From assembly GCA_036939755.1 (NCBI GenBank), contig JALLAZ010000131.1, positions 1-22,199 on the forward strand: a stretch of 22,199 nucleotides of DNA, in the 5' to 3' direction. The notes under the pieces were generated by a model. The model was not told where the DNA came from and did not search any database. It saw nothing but the letters and a program-made list of their open reading frames with translations. Below are positions 3,276 through 21,111 of the stretch, in pieces. A program made the translations under genes and the position numbers. Numbering within the stretch: the first letter of the stretch is position 1; the number at the start of each line of letters is the position of its first letter. Source of the DNA: Stephanodiscus triporus (Eukaryota > Bacillariophyta > Thalassiosirophyceae > Thalassiosirales > Thalassiosiraceae).

Positions 3276-4017
3276 TCACTGCTTCATTGGAATGTCAGAA
3301 GGGTTGTCCAAAGGAACAAACTGAGGAGGAGGATTGAAGGAAGGAGAGAGTTTGGTTTTGGATAATGTTGGAGTTGGAGTAGGAATAGAATCAAGAACAG
3401 GATCTTCAGAGTAATCAACCGGGCAATTCATTAAGAATGCACGCATGAGGCGGAATTTGGCACCCTGAAGGGGTTTGGTAAGGACATCTGCCCACATTTG
3501 TTCAGTAGGACAATATTGAAGATCGAGTTTGCCCATTTTGTGAAAATGACGAACAGATGCTTGGTTCATTTAGAACTGGAGATGTAGTCGTTTTTAGCCA
3601 AGGAAAGAGTACTCATATTGTCTTGATAGACGATGTTGGTTTTGATTTTGTAGCCCTGGGCTTCAAGGATTGACGCGTCCAGAGGACATCGCTAATTTTG
3701 TCATAGAGGCCGATGATTTCACTTTCGCAAGAGCTTTTGGAAGGAATTTTATCTTTCGTGGATGAACTGGTAGTGGCCCAGCGACCAAAGGCAAATGTAA
3801 GGAGGGAACCCGTGTGACATTTGCAATCGTCGTGAAGTTGATATGAAGCATCGACATACCAAACAATGTTGGAGAGAGATTCAGCGAAGAGGGTGAGTTT
3901 CAAATAGCAAGTAGAATGTAAATATTTGATAACGCGTTTTAGTTTGCCCCAGTCATCTTGATCAGGCTTCTTGACGCGAGTAGTCAGGAAGGCAACTGGG
4001 GACTGGTTTTCATCCTA
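3276..4017 (-). pseudogene. Ty1/Copia polyprotein remnant: end of RT, RNase H, C-terminus
   Basis: Reading the minus strand: VAFLTTRVKKPD and WGKLKRVIKYLH (RT-RNase H linker), then VDASYQLHDD, HTGSLLTF and KSSCESEIIGL (Copia RNase H), then VYQDNMSTLSL and finally YCPTEQMWADVLTKPLQG with FRLMRAFLMN. These pieces lie in more than one frame: there is a frameshift near 3675, a TGA at 3566-3568, and another shift just after it. The 5' side ends abruptly near 4017 and gag, protease, integrase and most of RT are missing. It is a dead, 5'-truncated copy. The C-terminus runs into a Pro/Thr/Ser tail ending at 3276, next to the polypurine tract and LTR start. Confidence 0.8.
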
Positions 4018-4170
4018 GCTGGAGCAGTTTGTTTCATTTGAAAATTTGCTCCGGTACAAACCTACGCCAGTGTAGGCTTGTGCCTATTTTCTATGGTAAC
4101 TTAAGGCCGGCTGGCGCACAAACCGTTTGGCTACTAGGTTTTATGCTGCAATTAGCTACTTTATTGTACT
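4018..4170. other. Junction sequence between Copia and GIY-YIG element remnants
   Basis: Short non-coding stretch where Copia homology ends. It has a small interrupted palindrome (CCTAC..GTAGG near 4064-4079). No gene seen. Confidence 0.35.
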
Positions 4171-5335
4171 CTACGTAACAAAACACATGAACAAAAAACC
4201 TCCCTTTAGTACTATAGGGTCGATTATTAGTGGGGATGCTTGAGTAGAAGGTGGGGGTTCATCGGGGGGAGAATCAGGGAGTGTTATTTGGTCGGTGGAG
4301 TAGTCGGTGGTACTGATACCATCAATTGAACCCATCAGATCAGAATTTGCATGTGGCCGGAGCCTCATTGTCAAAGTTCTGGGGATGGTAGGGCTAACAC
4401 GGTCTTCGAAAATAACGCATAACGGTGGGGGTTCGTTTGGGACAGATGGTTGTGCTGGTTGTGTTGTGGCTTGTGTCCCAAGGGATATCAAGCACACACT
4501 TTGGTTATTGGTAGTCTGTGTAGAGGGTTGGAAGGAGCGTTGATATCGATTGGATTGGTTGTAAGATAGTATATATTTATTGTATAGCTTAGTCACCACA
4601 CCTATGTGTTCTTGAACGCGTGTTTTGACGTTGACGTAACGCTGTGATTTATCTATGTCTATGTAAAAGCATTTGCAACAACCACTAGATTTGCAAGAGA
4701 TTTTGTAGACGATGCCTGCCATTTGGCAGGTGGTGTTGCCATTGCTGTAGATGCAATCCCCGTTGATTTTAAATCTAGTTGGGCAGTTACATTTGTGGAG
4801 GCCACGATCCGCATCGACAATTCCATGAAGGAGTTTTCAATTTAAGTCACCAAGTAGTTTCGTGCATAGGTTAGTAGTATGCCTGCTATAAATGATACAC
4901 GGACGTAACCATTTAAGCTGGAACCCATTCCGTAGGCATTTGACACGTTGGTAGATGGGTAATTTCATTAAGTCCGCATATTTCGTGATGAAGAGTGTAT
5001 CTTGGTGGTCAATTGCTCGATTCCGTTTTTTGAGTCTGGCTAGACCAGATCTAGATTCTTCTTCTTCAATAAGAACAGCACTGAGGGTATATTTTTTTGG
5101 TTGGGTTTGAGTTGTCTAGCTAAGCTGAGCGCATCATGTTTGTCGGGATAAATGTCAGAGATGCTCATATTGGCATTAGTATCTGTCATAGTGGTGAGTA
5201 GTGCAAGGCGCAGTTCAACACCAGATAGGACGGCTGCTTTTTGGTTACGGTGGTGGTGGCTGTCGTGATTGAGGTACTTGACGAGTTCGCGCGGCTTCTT
5301 GTACATGTGGAAATGAGGATGGGGTGAGGGTCCAA
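4171..5335 (-). pseudogene. 3' end of a retroelement ORF with GIY-YIG-like endonuclease domain
   Basis: Going downstream on the minus strand: YKKPRELVKYLNHDSHHH, GVELRLALLTTMTD and SISDIYPDKHDAL, a frame change near 5090, RSGLARLKKRNRAIDHQD, LFITKYADLMKLP and WLRPCIIYSRHTTNL, an in-frame TGA at 4837-4839, then KLLHGIVDADRGLHKCNCP. Next is a GIY-YIG-like stretch: AGIVYKISCKS, CFYIDIDKSQRYV, VKTRVQEHIG. The order (Cys-rich CNCP motif, then VYKI..YI..R..EH) matches nucleases that follow reverse transcriptase in Penelope-like and related retroelements; the exact family is uncertain. The RT core is absent (5' truncation), and one stop and one frameshift make it non-functional. The last about 100 codons are Pro/Thr/Ser-rich and may be tail or unrelated. 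Confidence 0.55.
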
Positions 5336-6090: not shown

Positions 6091-7547
6091 TCACACATTA
6101 GAAGAGAGATCGAACAAGTCCGATGGATCAGAGAAGTGAGTTGCTGGAAAGCTGTTTCGGTTCGGGCAGATGTAGTCAAAATCTGCTGCATCTATGCCTG
6201 CCCACGCTGCAATAGGAAGGAAGAGAGCCTCCCAAGATTTTGTGGGAATCAGCCTCCCCCTTCCAATGTTCAAGGGCGCGTTTTCCTTGATTGATGGATA
6301 TTTTCCAAAAATTTGACCTCCCTTAACTCCTCCACCCATCAAAATGTAATTTCCACCCCAGCCGTGATCGCTGCCTCCATTTCCGTTCGGGGCGAGAGTA
6401 CGAGCAAAGTCGGAGGTCTGGACCACTGTCACACTGTTCCATGTATTCTTGGCTTTCATTTCGTCCGCGAATGCCTTGAAGGACGCATCCACATCAGAAA
6501 ACAATCTGACTTGGTTGGCAAGTAACGCATCATGTGTGTCCCCTAAGTAATGTATTGCGGTCAAGCAATAGCTGTAAGACTTTATCATCAATGACAAGGG
6601 GAAAAGTAAAGAGAGGCAAAAAAAACTTACAACCACCAGTCTCTACGAAAAACACGTCCGCATCAGTACGTCGCACAGCACGAGAATCAATCATCTTTGC
6701 AACCATACTCAATTGCCTTCCTAGGCCTGATGTCGGGAATACAACCTGTGTTGTCTTGCCTGCCAGAGTATCAAAAACCTCTTTGTTGTTGGCCAGACTC
6801 TTCATCAATGATTCTGAATAAAAATCAGCAAACACGCCCGATTCAGGCGTGGTCTCCCCATTGAGCGAGGCAATCCTAGAATCCATATCTGTGCTTGACG
6901 GAGCCGCATTAAATTGTGTTGTCCCGCCGTCACTGATGATCATAGGACTTGATGCGAGTCCTGGCTCCCCAATTAGACAAATCGAGTGGGCATTGAGTGA
7001 AAATGCACCTACATTACGACCCTTCTTTTCCGTTAAAATATCCCTAATCCTGCCAAGGATGCCTGTGCCGTCTTGTGCTTTGAGCGGATCAAGTTTCTGA
7101 GCGGCTTGCTGCTGGAAATTGTGAGCAAAGAGCTGGGTTTTGGTATCTTTCCAGTAGTTTTCTTTGTCAGTCTCCTTTGTTAATTCACCAGTATTTGTGA
7201 AGAATAGCAAATCACGCTCATTGAACAAAGCTTGCAGAGATCCAAGTTGCGGATGTACACCAAATGTTTCACAAGCTTGGTTGGTCATAGTTCCGTTCAG
7301 AACTTTTAAACTGTTGCGGTCGAGTGCAACATCCTGACGTATCTCCACATATTCATCCCACAAAGTCATGTTGTCAATTTCTTGGGAGCAAGTATGAGGT
7401 ACCAGCATGTTGAACGAATCCTTGATTCAGAGGCAGCAGGCACATAAGAGAAACATGTAAGTGACACATACATGGCAAAATAGTGAGTGAAATCGTCAGT
7501 GTACTCACACAGCCTCCTCCAAATAGGACATAAACTATCGCCTTGTA
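6091..7547 (-). other. DUF1501 domain, C-terminal
   Basis: Residues about 3748-4173, exons 25-27. It opens with [19 protein letters not shown] (junction of exons 25/26), matching the 'GGxDxxNMLVP' start of DUF1501. It contains LFFTNTGEL, then ETGGWDTH (exons 26/27) and [20 protein letters not shown], the two signature motifs. DUF1501 belongs to the alkaline phosphatase/sulfatase-like superfamily; the Asp and His in WDTH and GSDHGWG are candidate metal ligands (inference). Length of about 425 is normal, so this domain is complete. A six-proline linker at residues 3738-3743 separates it from DUF1800. Confidence 0.9.
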
Positions 7548-10500
7548 TGCGGCACCTGAAGGTGGTGGTGGTGGAGGCAGTTGCCTCGCTTTACCGGTCT
7601 TGAGGATGGTATTTGTGCTTTGGAACTCGGGGGCCGCCAACAAAAGTTGCTGATAGAGATTGAAAAAAAGATTAGGACAATAGCAAGCTCAGATAGCTAC
7701 TAAATTCAATAAGGACATACCTGGGCCAAACGAAGAGCCGCTCCTGCTGGGTCCAGTAGACCTGTTTGATTCAGTTTGGAAATGTAGGCGTCCTCGATTA
7801 TTTTTCGGCTGGCGTCACTGAGCCTTCCACTTGTTAAAATGGTGGATAGCTCACGGACGACATTTCTGGCTTGATCTTGTGGAGTAGTTGTATTTTTATT
7901 GTGTGGCCTTGAGAAGGAGAGGCGAGCAGCTGCACGAGAGAAATCACCTTCGACGCAATTCGTCGACTCTGTTCCAAATCCTCCGTTGCATCTACTCAAT
8001 CCATATTTAACCAATGAAATCATTCCATTTAGTGCGCCCACTGTTTTGCAAAGTAAGTTTTAAGAGATCAGGAGGTCAGATTTTCCTGCAATTGCTTAGG
8101 TGAGACACAAACCATATAACAATAACCTACCAGTTTTGGGCATGTCCATGAGCATTGCTTCAGGACTACGGTGCGATGCTTTCCCTGGGCGGCCACCCGG
8201 TGGTACGTATTCTGGGAGCAAGAATGAAAATACAGTAGGGAAACAGTGGGCCATCTGGCCAATCTTATAGTCCAGATCATTAAGCTTGGCTAGAGGCTGG
8301 CCATCAGCGAGTTTCAGCTCCATTCCTCTCATAACTGCCATCAGTTTACGCAATGGCTCGCGAAGGCCTCCCTTGAAAGGGTAAGCATCAAGGCTAACAG
8401 AGCGTGGTTCTGGGTCGAGTAAGACAGCGGCAATCGTTGCGCGGAGGTCTCCGTATTTACTGGGAAAAAACCAAGTAGGGAGTAGCAATAAAAAAATCGG
8501 TTGAGTGATAGCAGTGCCAAGAGATGTGCTAAAAGAGCAACAACATGGTAACAAATCTCAGCGGTTTGATGTTCAAACCTCTCACCCTTCGCCAATCCCC
8601 TCGTAGTTACCAGTTCTGAATGCTGTTGCAACTCGTTTCACATAAGCCGGCATCGGGTTTGATGTGGTTAATCGTTGAATCAAACGGTATGCAATAAACG
8701 GAGCTGTGTTGTCATGGTAGAAGTAGTGATCAAGTGCTGCCTCAGTCTCGTATAGAGCGTCTCTTGCATTGGCCTATCAAAAGTTGAGTTGCGAGATGGG
8801 GAAATATTCATACACGCGCAGAAAAAAAAAATTACATGAAATGATGATATCGGGTCAACTCACTTCCGGATTCAAAACAGACATGAAACTTGGAGCATTG
8901 CGGAAGCTAAACATGGTTGCTCCCTCAATAGCAACCATGGAGCGAGTGTTCTTGAGGCGGTGGAGACGACCGTAAGCATCTGTCACCTCAAACACAGTCA
9001 GTGTATCAAAGGCTCCAGTAGCAGCGGCCAAGTAGGCAGTGACGCCATTAGCTTCAAGTGATTCTGCATAAGTGCCTTGGGGGTAGGCACCCGTGTCGTA
9101 TGCCCCAACATAGAGCTTTGACAATACTTCGTCTACACTTTTTGGCATTGCTTTAAAGACACGAGATTCAGTAATGGTAGTGTGACAGAGGCAACCACCA
9201 GTCTCAAGGGTTTCACAAGCACCGTTTCCACAGGAGTTGCCGTTGGTAACATCATTGTCGTTCTTCGGATATTCGCCATCAGCACTCCAATAAACTTTGA
9301 AAAAGTTCCTGTTATCATCCCGAATGTGAGGATGCAAAAATGCATACGAGTCAGGCTCATAAACTAAGGCCACTTGGCCTATTGCATTGACCTTCACCCG
9401 GATGGCACATTTATCTGTGGTCCAATGATATCCTTTCTTGTACCAATCAATACCAGTGATATCATTGAAGTCACATAGAACCATGCCCATAGCCGCACAA
9501 CGGGCACCTGCAGTCAAAAAATTGACACGTTCTTGGTCGTAGAGGTAACTTGTGGCACGCTCAGCAGTTAAATCATGAGTGCCCGCACAGCATGCCTGAG
9601 TGATAAATAAGACGAAATGTCAGACATAAGCAATCAAAAGGTAAAGAGCGCTTCTAAGCAATTCAGGTGGAGTGATATTGGACTCCTATTGTATCGACTC
9701 ACCTCAGATGCATAAGGCTGTACATATTCAAATAAATAGAGAAAAAGGATGACATTAATGAGCCTCAAGAGTAAGTAACACGGGCAATAAAACCAGTATT
9801 TTCTGAATGCGTACCAAAAGTGGATTGGCACAAGACGAGGCTGACCACCTTTCCTTGTAAATGATTTTCTTCGCATTGCCATAGAAAGCATGTTCTACAC
9901 AGGCAGGCCGGACATATTCATAATTAATGCCCTCGCTAACTTCAACAACGCGCAAAGTGTCAGCGTCACATTCTTTCTCCTTGCAGGCAAGGTTCTGCTC
10001 TAAAGTGACAGTGTTTTCATATTGGCAGGTGCCGCTATCATCTGCGTTGCAAAGCTCTGCTTTGAGAGACGAATTAGAAGCAAGGATGAATCTCTTCAGG
10101 GTAGGATCATTGTTGAACCTTGGGTCGTCTTCCATCAACTCAGGCATAGTAGTCAGTCCAAGCAACCTGTATTTTGCTCCTTTCTTTAAAAACATTTTCG
10201 TTGGAAGATCCGAGCAGAGAGGATAACGGTCTCCAATATAACCCCCGGTCATATCCGTCTTGGGAAATTTATCACGCCAGCCAGCTTGGATTTTCATCGG
10301 GTCTTGGCGATTGCCAGACCAAGTGTTCTCCTCTATATTTCCTCGACCTTGCTGGTAATCAAATCCAGTCCAGAGTCTTGCCAAGGACATAATCTCGTCG
10401 TTGCCATAGGCCAATACAGGCTGCCCTTCATCATCAAGAACCGGAGTGCCATCGAGATTCAGCTTATCCAAACCAGTTGAGAACAATTGCATGATCTCAC

Positions 10501-13500
10501 GCGCCTGAAATTATCGATGGAGTTAGAGCGATGGCTGCGTGCAGCATGAACATGATGAGCGATAGACAAATAGAAATCAAACTTACAAAGTTTTCGTCAG
10601 CGAAAGAAATAATCTGCTGGTTCTCCCACATGTATGCTGCACTTTTGCTCTGGAGGAAAGACAAGTTCTCTCCCATGAGTGGATGGAATGAAATTTCGCG
10701 AAGAATATCACGATAGTTACCAAACGCATTCCTGACAAAAATGTCATAGTAATTGAGAAATGCTTCAGTGTGCGAGCCTTGAACTTCAATGGCGCCACGA
10801 GCGACAACCAGAAATTGGGCAAATGCCCAGGCAACAATCTGCCTAAGCTGATCAGGAGCAGTGAGACTTATTTGCGTCCAAATATATTCCCTCTGTCTCC
10901 AGAGATCCCAGTCTGTGTCCCTCTCTGTTGTGACTTCAAATACATGGCCTTGACTAAGGTTGTTTGCAGTCTCATAGGGCGAGCCACAGACTAAGATCCC
11001 CCCTCCAGTAATATCCGTCTCAGCTCCAAAATACTCCGCAACCTCGACTGTTCGAACTTCATTTGGCAAATCAACAAACTTCATGACATCGCCAAATCGG
11101 CCTAACTTGGGAAATCTAGGGCTGTACATATCCCAGCGGTGGATAGGGTGAGCCCTCAGTGTAGAGTTAGGATTGGGGGGGGGCTTTGCAGGATACATGA
11201 GGATAGCACTTCGATTAAAATCCATCCATTTTTTTATAGGATGCGGGTGGTTGTTCATAGCCGCAATCATGTTGCCTGGGTGAGTGTCCTCCTCAGCCCA
11301 ATAGGAAAAGTCATACACAGAAAGGTGTTCTGGGTGAACGCGTCTGAAGCATTTGGAATTGATGATGATGTCTACTTCCACAAGAGTGGCGTGATTCGAA
11401 CTGCAAAACATCCCTGTCATAGGGAAAGTTATGTCACGCAGACCTGGATTTAAATCAATAGTTTCTCTTTGCTGCAAAAGCTTGACCAGGGTGGAATTAG
11501 TCTCAGCGCCCATGGGTGTTGGGGTGCATTGGGCTGCATCCAGGATTTCCCAACGAGATCTTAGATTTGGAACACATGGCGATGGCTGGGTCACATTGTC
11601 AATGTCTCTCAGCGGCAACCCCATTATTGCATAAACGTACTGATCGGTGATGTCGTGTAGCGCGATTAAGTTGGCAGCATTCAATTCAAACTGAATTGAG
11701 GGTGTGCCTGCAGAGCCACATGCCATACTGGAATTAGAGAGGGAACACTGCTCTTCATTGAGGAACGTGCGCGGGGCGTTGGCGCATTTTGTTCTGAGCG
11801 CAGTAACTGACCGCACAAGGCCACCACCATCAGGTATGTGATGTTCAAGTGTGTTCTCCACTAAGGCCATTCTTGGATCGAACATAAGCCACGAGCCATC
11901 AGGAAGTTTGCCAAATATTGGTGCATCATTTTCTTCCGTCACGGCATTGAGCTGACTACAGATGGGGTCGCTCAGGCCACTCTTAAGAATGAACTCCCCC
12001 CCACGACTACGCACTTCATCGATTGAGTCAAAGGTGCCGGGGGCCAAATTAGGGAGACTCAAGACAGAGTAGGGTTGGGCTGAGTCAGGATAAAATTTAA
12101 CGGCAGGGTTCGGCAGTGCCTGGCAAGTTCCATCGCTCATGCGCAGGTTAAACCAGCCCCCTTGCCACTCATCTGGTCTCCAGCACATCACATATTCTTT
12201 GTTAAATTCCAATGTGTATTTGGATCCAGCCGCGAAGGATAAGGATTTTACCACAGTGCGGACGTGACCTGCAGAGACGATGAGAGCAACCGACGACATC
12301 AAAAAAGAATTCTAATGGGTTAGCATATAGGCAGCACATGCATGCCCCGTGTTCTACCCTAACTTACCATTCAACTTAATCGTGATGTAGGTAGAAGTTG
12401 AGCTTTGCTTCGTTGCTTCGAACCGCTGAGGAACAAGAACACCGTTTTCCCCCTCCTTCTTTGAAAATGCGAATCTCCTCCATCTTGAAACCGGATCGCA
12501 TGGATGACCATTCTCTGCAATACCCACTGGATTGGTGAGCTGATGACAATAAAGCAGGAGAGCCTGTCGTTAGACAAAGAATAGCAGCACACCAAAAATC
12601 AAACAACGAGGCCCATTTGCATACCCGTGGATTCGCGCGCTCGCGAAAGTATTGGCGGTGGCTAGTAGGATTCATGTTCATCTGATCGACTATCCAAGCT
12701 TTTGCAGTGGCTTCAGTAAGAGTGCCGAAGGATGAAAGATCTTGTGCTGTTGTGCCGAACGTAGCAGTCTCGAGCAATCGCGCTACCTTGTCAGCCTCAC
12801 TAACAGAGTGAGAATAACTCGTGAGGTAGTACTTCCCAGTATCATTCAAGTCTGGTAGGTTAAGTTGAGAGCCTTCAGAGTAGTCGCCAATCTCTTTGCC
12901 ATAAAACAACCTCATCGCAAATTCACCAGCAGCCTTCTCCCAAGCTCTGCCATCATAAGAGAGAGCCACGGGGACAACATCTGATAGCGTTCCATTGGGG
13001 TCGGCGATTGCCTTGGTGAGAACGCACAAGGAGCTGCTCAAGGCCAACATTACAGGTCCCGAAGGAACTTCTGTGGAGACATATAACGCACTGGGGCATG
13101 AAGTGATTGTTGAAACAGTCGGCATTATTGTTGGCTGCATGAAATTGTGTATAGTTAGAAGAGACATGTGAGCTATTCATTTTACGATTACTCGGCGCGA
13201 ACAAAACCAACAACAGAGAAAGACTCACAGAATGTGTCGGTGCGCCTGTTGCCTCGTCCTCCTCTGCAGCAGTTATGGCGAATGTTGGCGAAAGAGTAGG
13301 TGGGAACGTCTGCACCTTTGATATTTGCATGTCGTCCACAACAATATCCCTGCAAAAATGAATTAAAAATGACACGATGGTGTCACCAAGTGATGAGATC
13401 GGAATGGTACTCTTCACCAAAATCATTCCAACAATAATGAACAATCTCATGTGCACACTCACTGGTCCTTGCTAATTTCATTAATATAGACCCAAACTTT

Positions 13501-16500
13501 TACACAAGACGCCAACGCGTCGTTGACTAAAAAGCCATTTTTGAAGTCATTGTATGCATCCTTCTGCCATCCTTGTACCGTATTCCAGAACCTCCAATAA
13601 AGATAACGATTGGCGCCAACGGCACATTCTTCACCAACAATCATTACGGATGGGCAGTTCTTGCCGCTCGTCCACTGATCATTGGTGTTACATTGCACAC
13701 CAGCTCCCGATGTGGCGTTAAGCAATCGAAACTTGGCTGATATTTCGTACTCGTCTCCAATTACAAAGCAACGTTTATCGAGCTGCTGACGAATTCCATA
13801 CCATTGATTATCACGGGCGTAAGCTCGCAGTGCAAAGTCTCCCTGACCCTCGGATCCTGGGCTGTAAAGTTTCAGTTTCATCCGATCCCTGTCAGTTGCG
13901 TGCCAAAACGCAGCACTGCCATTTTTGAACGAGGGGTTCTCGACAAGGGCATTACATTGTTTGGGGAGATGCTTGACCTCCACATTGTCTATAATAACAT
14001 CGTATGCGGTACTAATGCCATCAAAATATATCTTGGTGAAGTCAGCTTGCGCTTGATTGGGGCGGAGAGTCCACAGACCGTGAATATTATACCTGAAAGC
14101 GATGAGAGACGATAACAGAAAAGAAAGCCTAGGTGAATTCGAGGGTACACACGATGATACGATGAACAATATGAAATGGAAAATTACCATCCATTATCAA
14201 CATCCGACTCATCGGTGGATATCATAGCCACGCGTTGGTATTCATGGACTCCTGCCTTCTGTGTATACATCCAAATATCAGAGCATCTAATAAGGCTATC
14301 AGACCATGTGAAAGGATTGCAAAATGCTGCAATGCCCGGAGCTGCGCTTTTTTCAAAACGAATTTTCCCCGTGAATGCCAACCGCTCGCCAGCTAAAAGT
14401 TTAGATGGGATAGATTAATAAATATTTGCACCGATGACAAGGTTCACGAAAAGTGGAAGATTTGTAAGTGCTTACCATTTTGGACGCAGTCTGTATTCAT
14501 GATCTTGAATGGGGATATGACAATCTTAGAGATAGACTGGAGAAAAACTAAACAACAAACATTTGCGTTAATCAAATGTACATACCTGAGCAGGACCATG
14601 AGATAGATGCGGCCGCGTGGAGGCCTTTAAGGCTTGTCCTTTTCCTCCATAACCAGTAACAAGCGACAAGGTTACATCATCGCCCCACGTGTCCCAATAT
14701 TTTGTTTTGGGTTCTTCCATGTCGCTATTTAAAAGCAGTTTATCAGGATTACAGACCATCCGCTTGAAGGACACATTGTCAACGATGAAATCCTGGTTGT
14801 CAGGGCTTCGCTCGATTTCAAAAAATGCACGGAAGGTATTAGGAAGGCGGAGGATTCCATGGACAAGATTAAAGTCGCTGGAGTTATACGGACGAGCTAA
14901 AACAGCTTTATCATAGTCTTCCCAGTTCGACACTAACATTGTGGGGGGCGCGTTAAAGGAGGCAAATGGATGAGTTTGTTCAAGGAATAATGGTTTTTAA
15001 CAGGGAAAAAGTGCAACGTACAGAATTCCTTGGTGGTTATGTTTGCATAGCTTCGGGCATTCATTGTCATGACGGGCGACAAATTATTCCACCATACTTT
15101 GTTTGGATTGATTGTTTGGATTGGTGTTGATGGATCATTCTTGACCGTGACCTTCATATAGGCACTAAACTCGTAGAACTTTCCCTTCATGAGGTCGAGG
15201 CAGCGGCTATCGATGTCCTGTCCAAGACCCGTCCAATGACCTTCGCGATTTACAGTACTAATTGCATTGGTTCCACCTATGCCACGGCCCAATCTGACAG
15301 CAAGATCCCTCGGTTGCCCCAGTGTAGAAATCCAAGGATATGTGGTGACAATGTCGCTATCAATGCCTCCGTTTCGGATGAGTTCGACGCACTGCTGCTC
15401 ACTAACTGAAGGTTTTAATAGAGTAATTGAATCGACTGCTGCGAACCCTGTACATTCAGGCGGCTTCTGCCAGGTCTCTTCGACATACTGTGGCCACACT
15501 TGGACACCTTGCTCATTGATAAATTCGGCAGTGTATTGGCCTGCGGGCAGCGAAGCAGAAAACCTTCGGCCAGCGTAGGCATCGGAGAAATATGCGGCGT
15601 TGATCGTGAATATGGTTCCTGGAACATCCATCAAAGTTCCAGTGAGAGTATTTTTTATCTGCGTCAGAGAATAGCAAGAGATGGATGTGGAATAAAGTCA
15701 GTTGACGATTGTCAAATATCCAAAATTGGTGATAAGTGTACCTCCTTCAACATTATGATGACACTCACCCTCAACTTCCAATTTTCCGTTCCGAACTGTT
15801 CAACTTTAAACGAAAATGTTCGTAGACAAGCATTGGGACAGAAGGCAAGGCATTTTCCAATGCTCGAACATGCCCCAACACCTAAAATACCCTTAACATG
15901 CTCGTAATCATGAATTAATGATCCGCTTGTACCATTCCTGGAAGGATCAAAACTTCCACCCATATCCGTAATCACTAGATCACTCACTCCATAAGAAGTT
16001 GTCACTTCGCACCCGTCCATGATGATCCCGCGGCTATCGGATATCTTGACATTTTGGACCGAGGAAATGTAGTCGAAATGCTTGTCCCTTACTTCCGGAC
16101 TAATGGCAATAGGCTGTGATGGCAAACATACAAAACATATGTGTAAGCATAACAGCAGCAAAGTAAAACATTACTTTCGAGAGCTACTGTACTCACCTCC
16201 GTCGACTTGCAGTTAGGGTACCACTGCTTTTCCATGTCAAATCCTGAAATATTGACATTCCTCAAACGCAATCCTAAGTTTGGATCCGTAGGCCCGGTTT
16301 GCCAAATGGCAGACGGCAATATAAGGCCTTCATGACGCCAACTGGACGATGAACAGAGATTGAGGGAACGGGCCACAGTGTGATCCTTGAAGATCTTGGA
16401 AGAGCCCACAATTTCAAAGTCCTGCAACGTGACACGGTCAGAGACGCGTATTACAACACCCCACTGGTTGTCGGATAGCTTCCCACCAAGATATTCAGCA

Positions 16501-19500
16501 GCGACATTATCTGCCAAGCGAGGGGACAAAGAGTAGGTATCGAGAAAACAGGTGAGATAACAAGTTGTCTAGAAAGTGAGAAACGTGACATAGCTGTTTG
16601 CAAAACTCACTCCACGTCGAAATACCCTGTTCCCTATTCCTATAAGCCATAGTATTCTCAAATTTAGGCACGTTCACATTGTTCCTAAACGCATAGAATT
16701 GCTCTGAACAACAAAAAGAATTGGAGAGAGAATGACAGGGCAGTGCACAGAATAATACCAGGCAGATTAATCACCCAACTGCAAAAGTTACACATAATAA
16801 ATCACTCGAACTACAACATTCTTCTCACCAAAATTTTCGAATCTAAATCCTTGCCAGAAATTCGAATGTGCCTGATCATTCATCGAAAAAGTGACAAGCT
16901 CAAAATAAATCTCGGTTGAACAAAAGGGATGAAAATTTTGTGTTACGGAATAACTCACCTTGTTGCTGCGGAAAATACCCATGGGCTTTTGGCGATTGCT
17001 TCTTTTGTTAGGGTCAATGCCATTGCAAGCGTAGCATTCGTCTTCGCCATAAAAAGCCCAATGCATATGAGCATCAAAGCTGTTTGTATGTGCAAGAGAG
17101 AGATAGAGAGGAACACGACAGAGTACAACACAATACCAGGAAGATTAGTAGTCGCCCAAAACTACAAAAGTAACACAATACATTATTCAAAAGAATAAAT
17201 TCAACTTACCCACGTCCGGCACTACCGGCGGCAACATTCCCAATAAAGTCATTCTCACTACTCCTGATGAAGAAGGTTGCCCTATCATGATCGGACTGCC
17301 CAGCCAATTGCTCGCCCCACGAGATCAAATCATTCGTCTTCGACCCAATATTATTAAGAATCGAATTCTGGTTTGCCTCGAGACCGATGTAGTAGCAATG
17401 CCTGATGATGGTGATATTGAACCCAAAAGAGCAGTGAAAAATGAACACATGAACACGCACGAATGCAGCCCACCACGATAAGAATAACAACTCACCCCGC
17501 TGTATCATGAGCGACATTCGCGGCAATGGTGGCGTTGGACACACCGTCCATGGAAATGCATCGATGCGCAGAGTTGCGGATAGAATTGCGACTAATGGAT
17601 GTGCCCTTGACATCGCGCGAGTACAGAAACTGAAGTGGGAAACGGTTCTTGTAACCTTGTTGTCCCATATTAGTCAATTCCACACCCTCGATGACTTGAG
17701 CGACATTGGGCGTGTGGAGTACCTGCAGATACCCGCCCCGGCACACGGGTACGTTGCAGTAATCCCATTGCTTGGCAGGGTTGGTTGTGTAGCACCATGC
17801 TTTCTCCTGCCAACCTGCCTGTCCATCTGGGTTTCGGCAGTAGTTGTGATCTCCAAGACCGGCGTTTGGATAATTCGTTGGAGTTTTTGTGTGAGTGAAG
17901 GGCGTTTGCACGGACCACTTTTGACAAGTGAATCCGCCAACAGTTGTGGAAATAGTGCCACGGTAGTCGGCTTGCTTGATCCGGTCGGTGCCGCATAAGT
18001 CAACGCGAGTCTCTCCCTCAATCTTGATGTTGCGCGTGAGCATTGCAACTTCGACGCCCATCCCTGGCGTTTCTTTCTCGGAGAGTACTGAATCGATGGC
18101 GATGTTGAGCTTGAGGATCGAACTGCCATCTTCCTTGGCTTGGATGGAGTTGATCATGGCATCTTGGGAGTCCTTCCAGCTTAATGTAGAGGACGTGATG
18201 TGAATATCAGAATTGGCTGCCCAACGGGACACAGCAGATGAGTTGACCTTGAGGCCTTCCGCGGGCTAAGAGCACATTTGCGACAAGAGATGCGTGTGAG
18301 CGAACCATCCGTTGATAGTATATAAACACGCACGAATACAGGTGAAACAACTCACCCCGCTTGTGTGCTTTATACTGATATCATCAAAATCGATCAAAGC
18401 GCGATTATTTGCATCCTCGTTGACCGTATATGACTCCCATACTACTTCCGTCAAACTCGCCAACTCCTCCCCTACCAAAAGGGGAGCCGAACATGTTGTC
18501 CAAGTACTGGACTGCGATATTTCAGGACATTGCAAAACCAGGGGAGACACCCAATCACCGTTTGGTTTCTTTCCTTTGAGCTGGACGTTAATTTTCATCT
18601 TGCCCGAGGTGTAGGCGTACAACCGCGTGCGGAGGCTGACGGTGTACACGTGGCCCTTAACGAAGCACTCCGGGTTGGGACGGAATCGAATAGGTAGCCA
18701 AATATTATTCCAAGAGCCGCGTGCCCTGATGCGGTAGAACCTGTTGACGATTCCGGATACCATCTCCTCGTAAACAAGCGGGTTGAAGTCCCGGTCATAG
18801 AGGAAGGGGTAGTGCGAGAAACCACCACCGTCGTTGTCTTCGGCCTTGCCATTGACGGCGAGTTCGACGCAGGCTTCGCTTTTTGGGGCGTAGCTCTTGT
18901 TCGACGGCAACTCAAACAGGAAGTGATCCAATAGTACTTTGGCACCAAGAGGGAATTTGTCTAATATGAAGAGTTGACCGGCGACGTTTGTCAGGTCATC
19001 GCCAGTCCATTTCCATTCCGTTGAGAACCAGAACCACTCGTCGTTACTTCCCATGTTACCGTTGCTTATATATCTCTCATCAAACCTGTCGCCCCCCACA
19101 GTGCGCAGGATCTTCCGACGAATACGTGGACAGTTGCTGCCACTGATCTCGCAATCAGACTTCGTGCCCGGGGCCGTGCCGTTGCGGAGGATCTTGAGCC
19201 TTAGGGTCACTAGGTACGTTGCCCCGGCAATGAGAGGGCACTGCGTTGCGATTTCACTGAGTTTGTGGGATAAACGGGCAATTAGTTCATGTGTACAAAT
19301 CAAAGTTTATGACGAAAAGATTTTACACAAATAGAAGTATTCATGGGCGCAACAACAACAACAGAGTGAGCAACTGACCTGAAGTCCAACTTGAAGCCCT
19401 GCCAATCGAATTTCACGGGTCCCGCCTCGATCGCACCGCCCTGATCGTGCAAGTGATGCACGATGATGCCTTCGCCGCCGCTCCACACTTGAAAATCCAC

Positions 19501-21111
19501 TTGATCGTCGAAATTGTGATCGACGAGCTTGCTGGGGCATTGCGCCGGCTCCCCAGCAACCCCGGTCCGATTGGGCGGCGCGATTGCCGTGCGCTCCTTG
19601 CCCACCTCGGAGGAAAGGATCGGGTTGGGCCTCGCGCCCTCGGCCGTCTCCATAAGGGTCGTCCAGGTCTCGGCCAGCCCGTTCGCGGCGAGGCTGCCGG
19701 TCCACCCTCGCACGATCAATTGACCACCGACGACTAGGAACGGCTTGACGCCCGCGTTGAAGGTCGAGCTCGCCACGCCGGCGTTCCCGGACGCGGGAAC
19801 GAACGTGACGTCGGTATCCCCCGTCAGCACGATCCTCATGCTGGTGTTGTTCTTCGAGATCGGGTTGGTGTCGCTCATCTCCAAAACGCCCTGGACAAAC
19901 ACGAACTTGGTGAGCAACGTTGACTTGTGATTGGGAGGGACGTACAGTTTCCCGATGATGTCGAGACCGTCGATGGCCGTGGGGGTGGAAGGGAGGTCGT
20001 ATGTGTAACACATCCCGCACGGGACAGTAACCTTGGCGGTACCCGACAGCAACGACGACAACTTGTTGCCAGAGCAGATAGCCGTGGCGATGTTGGCGTT
20101 GCAGATAAGGGGATTGAAAAGGCCGATGGGGAACGTGTTGATCCCCTGGGTAACCTGCAGCCTGCGATTGACCTCGTGCTCGGCGGCGGCGGCTTCCCTG
20201 TCCAACCGACCACCGTCGCCGCGACGACGACGAGGGGGATGATCGCGATTCTCGATGGGGGGGCGACGGAGCCTCCGGTCACTGTGAGCCCTGGACCTGC
20301 CAAGTGCCTTCATCTCGTCCTCGGCATCCTCCGCCGGATGCACCACGACCTGCGGCTCCTGCTCCTGCTCCACAACGATGGTCTCGGCAAGCGACCCATC
20401 TTGAAGAAACGCGACGAGCTGCTCGTCGATCGTCGTCTCGGTCACCTCTTTCTCATCGAGGCCCGTTCCGGGGAAGGCCAAGCCGTCCGATGGCTCTTCC
20501 ATCATCGTGTGAGTCTCGACGTTAGCAACGCCATGATCTTCTTCGGACCCCACCGCGACCGGCTCTGTCGCGGACCCGGGATCGGTGACTCCCCACGTTG
20601 TAGAGCCGTCCATGACGATTTCGACGGGTTCGAACCCCCCCATTTGCGCATCGACCTTGAGCCCCGCGAGGGTCAGGTTTGTCAGGTTCGTCGCCCCCTC
20701 CCCCCCCCCCTCCCACCCCCCCTCCTCCTCGGTCGACCACGACGAAGAGGAACCGGAGGGCGGCGCCTCCTCGACGCCTGCCGCGAACTTTTCCGCGGCC
20801 ATCTCGCCCCCCGGCACGGTGACGATGAACTCGCCCGGTGGGACACCTTTACCCCCCGTGGCGTTGTTCGCCTGTGTGGCGCCGTCCGGCGCGTCGCAGC
20901 AGGTGGACGAGCCGAAGGAAACCACTTCCTCGGATTGAGAGGCCTCGGACTTGACGACGTCCTTCTCCTGACCAAGACCTTGAATGACCTCGGACATGGC
21001 ATCCTCCTGTCCGCGACGTTGACTGACAACGGGCAGGGCACTCTTGGCCTCGCCGAGGGAGAAGGCGACGAGGACGAGCCACGCGGTGGTGCGAAGGACG
21101 CAGAGCCTCAT
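6091..21111 (-). CDS. Giant secreted G8 / kringle / beta-helix / DUF1800 / DUF1501 protein, 27 exons
   Basis: Exons, 5' to 3': 21111-19379, 19256-18356, 18265-17496, 17401-17210, 17079-16959, 16871-16829, 16703-16611, 16510-16197, 16113-15769, 15658-15022, 14932-14586, 14524-14476, 14392-14188, 14092-13463, 13349-13229, 13134-12625, 12539-12368, 12268-10587, 10504-9815, 9717-9703, 9595-8864, 8773-8586, 8459-8131, 8040-7721, 7649-7509, 7420-6631, 6542-6091. All introns are GT..AG; the total is 12,522 nt (4,173 aa plus TGA). The start is the first ATG of the long first exon: A at -3, then a hydrophobic signal peptide. Domains by residue: signal 1-22; acidic linker to 270; Arg-rich 270-319; G8 about 344-475; beta-sandwiches 525-696 and 705-878; beta-helix 879-1504 with kringle 969-1053; beta-sandwiches 1592-1775, 1777-1959 and 1961-2139; PT linker; DUF1800 about 2280-3726; DUF1501 about 3748-4173. 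No transmembrane segment was noticed after the signal. Function is inferred: extracellular polysaccharide binding or processing. Individual junctions, especially around exon 20, need RNA support. Confidence 0.85.
7611..12798 (-). other. DUF1800 domain with two very large insertions
   Basis: Residues about 2280-3726. Core motifs in the correct order: [64 protein letters not shown] (spanning the exon 18/19 junction); [26 protein letters not shown] with [37 protein letters not shown] at the end. Bacterial DUF1800 proteins are roughly 450-600 aa. Here about 530 residues are inserted before LRQIV (2338-2868) and about 440 between WTGF and ALDHYF, the latter with a Cys-rich patch ([16 protein letters not shown]). 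The biochemical function of the family is not established. Confidence 0.85.
9703..9717 (-). other. Predicted 15-nt microexon (exon 20)
   Basis: On the minus strand, ATGTACAG is followed by 15 nt encoding PYASE and then GTGAGTCG. The upstream intron (9718-9814) has a pyrimidine-rich 3' end. Exon 19 is taken to end at a GTACGC donor (9814). The microexon keeps phase 0 on both sides. An alternative is skipping it, which also preserves frame. Confidence 0.55.
13313..13962 (-). other. Carbohydrate-binding-like beta-sandwich module 5
   Basis: Residues about 1961-2139, exons 14-15. It begins [19 protein letters not shown], contains [20 protein letters not shown], and ends [12 protein letters not shown]. 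This is the clearest CBM4/9-like copy. A Pro/Thr/Ser linker ([20 protein letters not shown]) follows and leads to DUF1800. Confidence 0.6.
13966..14753 (-). other. Carbohydrate-binding-like beta-sandwich module 4
   Basis: Residues about 1777-1959, exons 11-14 with the short exon 12 inside. It begins [14 protein letters not shown], followed by [14 protein letters not shown], and ends [12 protein letters not shown]. Same start and end pattern as its neighbours. Confidence 0.55.
14757..15397 (-). other. Carbohydrate-binding-like beta-sandwich module 3
   Basis: Residues about 1592-1775, exons 10-11. It begins [13 protein letters not shown], includes [15 protein letters not shown], and ends [11 protein letters not shown]. 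The start closely resembles module 2 (CVEL..NG). Confidence 0.55.
16704..16828 (-). repeat. Intron 6, similar in sequence to intron 4
   Basis: A block at about 16752-16798 reads, on plus, ATACCAGGCAGATTAA then CTGCAAAAGTTACACA. It closely matches intron 4 (ATACCAGGAAGATTAG then CTACAAAAGTAACACA, about 17131-17179). Intron 6 is phase 1, intron 4 phase 2. Confidence 0.7.
17080..17209 (-). repeat. Intron 4, similar in sequence to intron 6
   Basis: Partner of the intron 6 copy. The similarity covers most of the central and 3' part, including the pyrimidine-rich tract before the acceptor, while the flanking exons are not visibly alike. Confidence 0.7.
17741..17995 (-). other. Kringle domain inserted in the beta-helix
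   Basis: Residues 969-1053, wholly inside exon 3. Six Cys in kringle order: [32 protein letters not shown] and [26 protein letters not shown] and WDYC are hallmark kringle motifs, and the length of about 85 is normal. In the family, kringles are disulfide-rich binding modules. Cys spacing indicates an intact fold. Confidence 0.92.
18356..18880 (-). other. Carbohydrate-binding-like beta-sandwich module 2
   Basis: Residues about 705-878. It begins [13 protein letters not shown], contains [10 protein letters not shown], and ends [10 protein letters not shown], a typical CBM4/9 terminal strand. The module ends exactly at the exon 2 boundary. Confidence 0.55.
18902..19539 (-). other. Carbohydrate-binding-like beta-sandwich module 1
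   Basis: Residues about 525-696, across intron 1. It begins [19 protein letters not shown] and ends [11 protein letters not shown], the layout of CBM4/9 or galactose-binding-like modules (start 'NxDF..G...W', end 'DDVxL'). Family membership is by pattern only. Confidence 0.45.
19687..20076 (-). other. G8 domain
   Basis: Residues about 346-475. Characteristic flow: [47 protein letters not shown] and [14 protein letters not shown]. This matches the G8 domain (eight conserved glycines, beta-rich) of CEMIP/KIAA1199, TMEM2 and fibrocystin-L. In those proteins G8 precedes the parallel beta-helix, as here. Known members act on or bind extracellular glycans, notably hyaluronan. Confidence 0.8.
20155..21045 (-). 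other. Acidic low-complexity region followed by Arg-rich segment
   Basis: Residues 23 to about 270 are rich in Glu, Asp, Gly, Ser, Thr and Val without visible folded-domain motifs. Residues 270-319 switch to Arg-rich sequence with DRRLRRPP and [14 protein letters not shown] followed by G fits a furin-type cleavage site only loosely. The DNA here is clearly more GC-rich than the rest of the gene. Confidence 0.6.
21046..21111 (-). other. Signal peptide of the giant protein
   Basis: Residues 1-22: [20 protein letters not shown] followed by EAKS. A short basic start, a hydrophobic core and small residues near the likely cleavage site give a standard secretory signal. Confidence 0.8.

Follow-up and report, generated by a model that had tools for sequence, protein, structure and literature searches.

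The domains DUF1800 and DUF1501 occur widely among bacteria and are not known to have a function; the accessible parts of the open literature supply contexts for them (chitin synthase operons, export, a metagenome correlation cluster, lists of secretion genes, calcification) and no tested function. In the available part of PMC5122149, bacterial chitin synthase operons include genes for both and a twin-arginine motif is reported for the DUF1501 protein, and the available part of PMC7563939 reports DUF1800 as enriched among genes up-regulated in calcium-induced calcification of E. huxleyi (2/10 genes, false discovery rate 0.0036). Another set of proteins, CEMIP, TMEM2 and fibrocystin-L, combines a G8 domain with a CEMIP-type parallel beta-helix. 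Here we describe a gene of the diatom Stephanodiscus triporus in which the two are joined. It lies on the minus strand of contig C131 (JALLAZ010000131.1), which was analysed whole, as a window of 22,199 bases, from a draft genome of 21.65 Mb in 1,324 contigs. Like CEMIP and its kin, the diatom protein has a candidate G8 (near the cut-off here) and the beta-helix; unlike them, it carries a kringle where the helix begins, and the helix is joined to CBM-like modules and to DUF1800-DUF1501. The gene structure, the signal-like start, the order of domains and the conservation of the fusion are established at the level of sequence, and the fusion in algae is strong evidence that DUF1800 and DUF1501 work together. 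It places both outside the cell, beside sugar-binding modules. A literature search, with supplements and most subscription papers outside its reach, gave no paper on the giant diatom protein among those listed; DUF1501 had no match in the main text of PMC5615132, and a text search of the diatom chitin synthase paper PMC10134812 for five terms gave none.

One gene, one giant protein

The gene spans 6091..21111 (minus strand) and encodes one giant secreted protein of 4,166 residues in 27 exons, as placed by an exon-chain search and by alignment to relatives. The start codon at 21111 is the first ATG in the open frame, and the stop at 6091 is the best end for a scripted exon chain begun there. 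All 26 introns of the final model are GT-AG and 71-130 nt long, the 4,166 codons hold no internal stop, and GC content is 0.50 in coding sequence vs 0.31-0.46 in introns, the latter measured on an earlier model. An unconstrained gene-finder run scored 998 on the minus strand, with 31 exons, 4,182 residues, a start further upstream and the identical stop; the opposite strand, as a control, reached at most 173, with 743 residues. When exon junctions were aligned with the relatives P0001-P0004, 24 of 26 were gap-free against P0001. Junction 12 differed by one residue from P0001 and by none from P0002, and junction 11 carried 11 surplus residues, so that its acceptor was shifted by 33 nt (intron 11 is now 14504-14585). 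The coordinates and the 27 exons proposed by a first-pass annotation, made from the sequence alone, were thus borne out by the exon-chain search and the final model, and its length of 4,173 residues became 4,166 with the corrected acceptor.

A search with the whole protein found nine relatives. P0001, from JGI, is a single open reading frame (ORF) of 4,319 residues on a 13,243-nt contig, covers 92% of the query with the kringle included, and is most likely a transcript, since genes of this kind carry introns. P0002 and P0004 are gene models of Cyclotella cryptica with an annotation edit distance (AED) of 0.03; their quality strings, in what we take to be the MAKER format, would mean that every splice site is supported by transcripts. 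The C. cryptica models CCRYP_005584-RA and CCRYP_018076-RB, both uncharacterised, have G8, CEMIP beta-helix, CBM_4_9, Pro-Thr linker, DUF1800 and DUF1501 in identical order within a single gene model; they differ in lacking the kringle and are 55-56% identical across 75% of the query. P0023, an MMETSP transcript, carries a C-type lectin domain in addition to CEMIP and DUF1800 and ends inside the first DUF1501 residues. The single ORF of P0001, the C. cryptica models and the gap-free junctions uphold the earlier claim of one fused protein.

It could be supposed that two neighbouring genes lie here, the second starting within intron 14 (13350..13462, minus strand) with its own signal peptide. 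This intron does read, in the frame of exon 15, as an ATG with a hydrophobic, signal-peptide-like stretch, a possible alternative start, and in two paralogues, C419 and C960, a signal-like start lies ahead of the Pro-Thr linker. Against this, the upstream frame is broken by five stops within intron 14, the splice sites of this intron are standard, exons 14 and 15 jointly encode the final strands of one beta-sandwich, and the linker junctions 14 and 15 (around 13.1-13.3 kb, where the first-pass annotation had suggested that separate genes might show themselves) are both gap-free against the single-ORF P0001, the linker of P0002-P0004 being five residues shorter than that of the query. On the alignment at these two junctions we reject two genes in place of one, a second gene of the kind supposed being very improbable. 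An internal second transcript from intron 14 may exist, and the fusion would stand regardless. That the architecture is an artefact of a draft assembly in many contigs, or bacterial contamination, is hardly credible, being contradicted by introns along the entire gene and by matching architecture in the independent relatives P0001-P0004.

Diatoms commonly have DUF1800 and DUF1501 fused in one protein. When the half of the giant that holds both was used as query, 131 matches were obtained; 120 of these were examined, and 104 scored at E 5.5e-79 or better. Organisms are named for 20 of these 104: 18 diatoms, one Triparma (entered as Bolidomonas; DUF1800 only, among the matches listed) and one dinoflagellate, Effrenium, the closest named relatives among the matches listed being Cyclotella and Skeletonema. 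The remaining 16 of the 120 are weaker and show DUF1800 but no DUF1501; where an organism is named for them, it is a bacterium. Precomputed Pfam annotation gives a further domain in 14 of the 104, of a carbohydrate-binding, lectin-like or discoidin-like type in 10 of these 14 (PF13385 and PF00397 were tallied under what we take to be their family names), and one dinoflagellate member has three CBM_1 (cellulose-binding) stretches. Within the S. triporus genome, which also gives a silicon transporter match of 758.8 bits, four further loci match both DUF1800 and DUF1501. Rough models of three (C411, C419 and C960) are long proteins with signal-like starts; a Pro-Thr-rich linker precedes DUF1800 in C419 and C960, C411 has kringle and ricin-type domains (the latter below cut-off), and C419 has CBM_6 and CBM_35, with its DUF1501 below cut-off. 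A protein resembling the N-terminal half seems to occur alone (P0131). Taken with the signal-like starts of the paralogues, this suggests that the giant would most simply be two secreted modules joined, a CEMIP-like G8/beta-helix module with beta-sandwiches and a DUF1800-DUF1501 module.

As a side observation, contig C1166 (about 9875-16559) contains chimeric copies in decay, broken by in-frame stops and shifts of frame, in which pieces 69-76% identical to the giant's G8 region and the sequence downstream of it lie beside a DUF1800-DUF1501 piece.

Domains of the protein and the bacterial pair

All features of the protein lie on the minus strand. By Pfam search of the joined protein, DUF1800 (PF08811) scores 161.4 bits against a cut-off of 26.1 (5e-47) and DUF1501 (PF07394) 99.9 bits against 27 (2e-28). 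DUF1800 is spread over several stretches: an N-terminal segment placed by motif (residues 2275-2327, 12634..12792), the best Pfam stretch spanning profile positions 57-203; a first part of the core, containing DQLRQ (residues 2846-3036, exons 18-19, 10241..10895); and a second part (residues 3431-3719, exons 22-25, 7611..8764). Inside it lies an insert, missed by the first-pass annotation, at residues 2685-2790 (11061..11378), for which a cytochrome b5-like fold is predicted by structure models of relatives, with His2717 (11280-11282) and His2761 (11148-11150) as candidate heme ligands. The insert occurs in 86 of 103 algal-type proteins vs none of 81 bacterial ORFs. Its two histidines align in 34/37 and 32/37 rows, and a motif scan found the second in 32 of 43 proteins, most commonly 24-46 residues from the first; the spacing is 44 residues in the diatom giant vs 23 in the Effrenium member. 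Algal DUF1800 thus seems often to have a b5-like insert with two conserved histidines, to judge from the alignments, and this is a new observation that makes heme a concrete new test. Unlike cytochrome b5 itself, the diatom module sits within DUF1800 of a secreted protein, and its heme ligands are putative. Beyond the b5 part, the DUF1800 core has no solved relative among the matches listed, which is not proof of a new fold; a sequence search of the PDB gave none for DUF1501, four at chance level for the DUF1800 core piece and none for the linker with the start of DUF1800.

DUF1501 (residues 3741-4166, exons 25-27, 6094..7547) is predicted by structure models of relatives to share the fold of phosphodiesterases, sulfatases and alkaline phosphatases, so that the model gives it an enzyme fold. 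The likeness to the alkaline phosphatase superfamily (NPP, PafA, sulfatases, LTA synthases) is in the predicted fold; the differences are an identity of 8-13% among the matches listed and a nucleophile possibly absent in most algal members. Its conserved residues are Asp3754, His3853, Asp4018, His4020, Asp4075 and His4076, and the presumed metal-site Asp and His are invariant in algal members. Residue 112 of the domain directly precedes the invariant His113 at a helix start, and on that account is a possible nucleophile position.

The N-terminal half opens with a signal-peptide-like stretch, found by hydrophobicity scan (residues 1-22, 21046..21111); a simple scan of this kind found no anchor at the C-terminus and showed moderate hydrophobicity in two internal stretches. 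A variable, acidic, low-complexity stretch follows (residues 23-340, 20092..21045), residues 1-300 sharing 23-24% identity with P0001 in a much-gapped alignment. The candidate G8 domain (PF10162; residues 358-441, 19789..20040) is close to its cut-off of 22.9 bits, at 19.4 bits (E 0.001) in the joined protein, while single-frame searches gave it 21.3 bits and, in the genome search, 24.8 bits; it is annotated in P0002 and P0004 and not in P0001 and P0003. The kringle (residues 977-1053, 17741..17971) is flanked in the CEMIP-like part by RNIKIEG and GGYLQV, scores 75.5 bits against a cut-off of 34.3 (PF00051, 4e-21), and has plasminogen ranking first in the PDB sequence search. The CEMIP-type beta-helix (residues 1055-1248, exons 3-6, 16845..17737) matches profile positions 3-212 of 212 at 106.5 bits against 27.3 (PF24606, 2e-30). 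Modules of CBM_4_9 type start near residues 1597, 1783 and 1959 (approximately 13313..15382), with a similar start motif at residue 709, and the Pro-Thr linker between the halves (residues 2133-2173, exons 15-16, 13096..13312) was placed by alignment in the final model. Several parts of the first-pass annotation need qualifying here: kringle, beta-helix, DUF1800 and DUF1501 pass their cut-offs in the joined protein and G8 falls short; of five proposed beta-sandwich modules Pfam recognises two (CBM_4_9, 2.5e-16); and "animal-like" was too narrow a term, the G8 and CEMIP models also matching the bacterium Deinobacterium chartae in control searches. The CEMIP model matched in 0 of 15 bacterial genomes that carry the DUF1800-DUF1501 pair.

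Bacterial counts rest on the best 80 of 541 loci, plus 15 loci on viral contigs. As the first-pass annotation stated, the two are adjacent genes: in 74 of the 80, DUF1501 is the next gene downstream of DUF1800, on the strand that carries DUF1800; it is missing in six (five of which end within 800 nt) and is fused in none. One search pattern lay in DUF1501, and a check for bias was therefore made on loci found through the DUF1800 pattern alone with room downstream, where DUF1501 follows in 28 of 29. The bacterial pair thus shares with the algal chain both domains, adjacent and in identical order, and differs in being two genes and in lacking the b5-like insert. Pairs also occur on viral-labelled contigs, at 14 of the 15 loci, two of them on one 322-kb contig.

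Possible roles of the fused protein

The explanation that we favour, with a probability of roughly 0.42, is that this is a protein of the wall or exopolysaccharide layer that binds glycan, and that the presumed DUF1501 metal site may edit sulfate or phosphate esters of that glycan. The N-terminal half would anchor the protein on extracellular polysaccharide; DUF1800, with an insert that may bind heme, would scaffold DUF1501; and DUF1501, with a metal site formed by conserved Asp and His, would act on the polysaccharide esters. The carbohydrate-binding companions of the algal family tip the balance toward the extracellular matrix, the reaction itself being unproven. A cell-surface role of the two DUFs is testable in easily grown diatoms.

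Several observations weigh against this explanation. No further Pfam domain is present in 90 of the 104 relatives. TM-scores of DUF1501 to known enzymes in Foldseek are low (0.28-0.41 by query length), and the profile alignment to PF01663 relatives for catalytic residues is weak, spanning only 40-42 columns. Residue 112 is Ala in the diatom giant (7124-7126) and in 78 of 86 algal proteins (those covering the domain among 105 blast-matched database proteins) vs Ser in 66 of 73 bacterial DUF1501 ORFs longer than 350 residues, taken from the 74 loci having one, which makes activity of the algal domain doubtful. A survey of bacterial neighbours began with 244 ORFs at 63 loci, was reduced to 121 (every second locus, ORFs of at most 900 residues) and searched 94; among the 25 of 80 matched neighbour families examined, each of at most four members, there was no common third gene, no common glycan gene and no chitin synthase. 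Published contexts also point elsewhere, DUF1800 falling in a correlation-study cluster under DNA metabolism and repair in the available part of PMC3597751, and that of PMC6653060 counting both DUFs with proteins tied to genes of type 6 secretion. The earlier proposal of a phosphatase- or sulfatase-like DUF1501 is therefore sustained in its predicted fold and left in doubt for algal activity, and the proposed tie to glycan is favoured by the extra domains and by CBM_1 in the dinoflagellate and weakened by the many relatives without such domains and by the bacterial neighbours.

The main rival, tentative and clearly less probable than the wall-ester explanation, is a structural or adhesive matrix protein in which DUF1501 has lost catalysis while keeping its fold and metal site, and the chain serves solely to crosslink or coat the polysaccharide of the wall. 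Beta-sandwich, kringle and beta-helix modules are typical of adhesion. The prevalence of Ala over Ser at residue 112 would also fit, as would one study that, in the available part of PMC10206443, reports an absence of hyaluronidase activity for TMEM2, a CEMIP relative with a beta-helix. Invariance of the presumed metal-site Asp and His in algae speaks against lost catalysis, and the nucleophile assignment is itself putative. It is also conceivable, though rather unlikely, that in algae the bacterial gene pair became fused and gained a heme-binding b5-like domain as a secreted redox-linked machine that edits or crosslinks wall polysaccharides, with the giant G8/kringle form its largest version among the proteins compared; the variable distance between the two histidines led us to lower our estimate of this slightly. 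A secreted scavenging enzyme that feeds the cell by freeing phosphate or sulfate bound in dissolved organic matter, its binding modules keeping it near the cell, is improbable given the very large multi-module architecture and the Pro-Thr-rich linkers. Chitin is made by Thalassiosirales, and a chitin-specific role, in the assembly or trimming of beta-chitin fibres by the module, would accord with this, with the bacterial operons cited above and with two Chitin_synth_2 matches in the genome (E 1.5e-165 and 2.8e-160), a model that 4 of 14 control genomes, E. coli among them, also match above its cut-off. A role in chitin only is weakened because the fused pair is listed for a dinoflagellate and for pennate diatoms (Nitzschia, Seminavis, Stauroneis, Epithemia) as well; with chitin synthase absent among the neighbour families examined, we consider it slightly less probable even than scavenging.

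Flanking contig features

Elsewhere in the window, a minus-strand ORF at 2-814, cut at the contig end, has two Zn2-Cys6 cluster stretches (31.1 bits), and a GC-rich repeat array with units of 12, 24 and 36 bases lies at 1868-1968. Minus-strand ORFs at 3276-5115 have no Pfam match; they presumably resemble copia-like and GIY-YIG/Penelope-like mobile elements.

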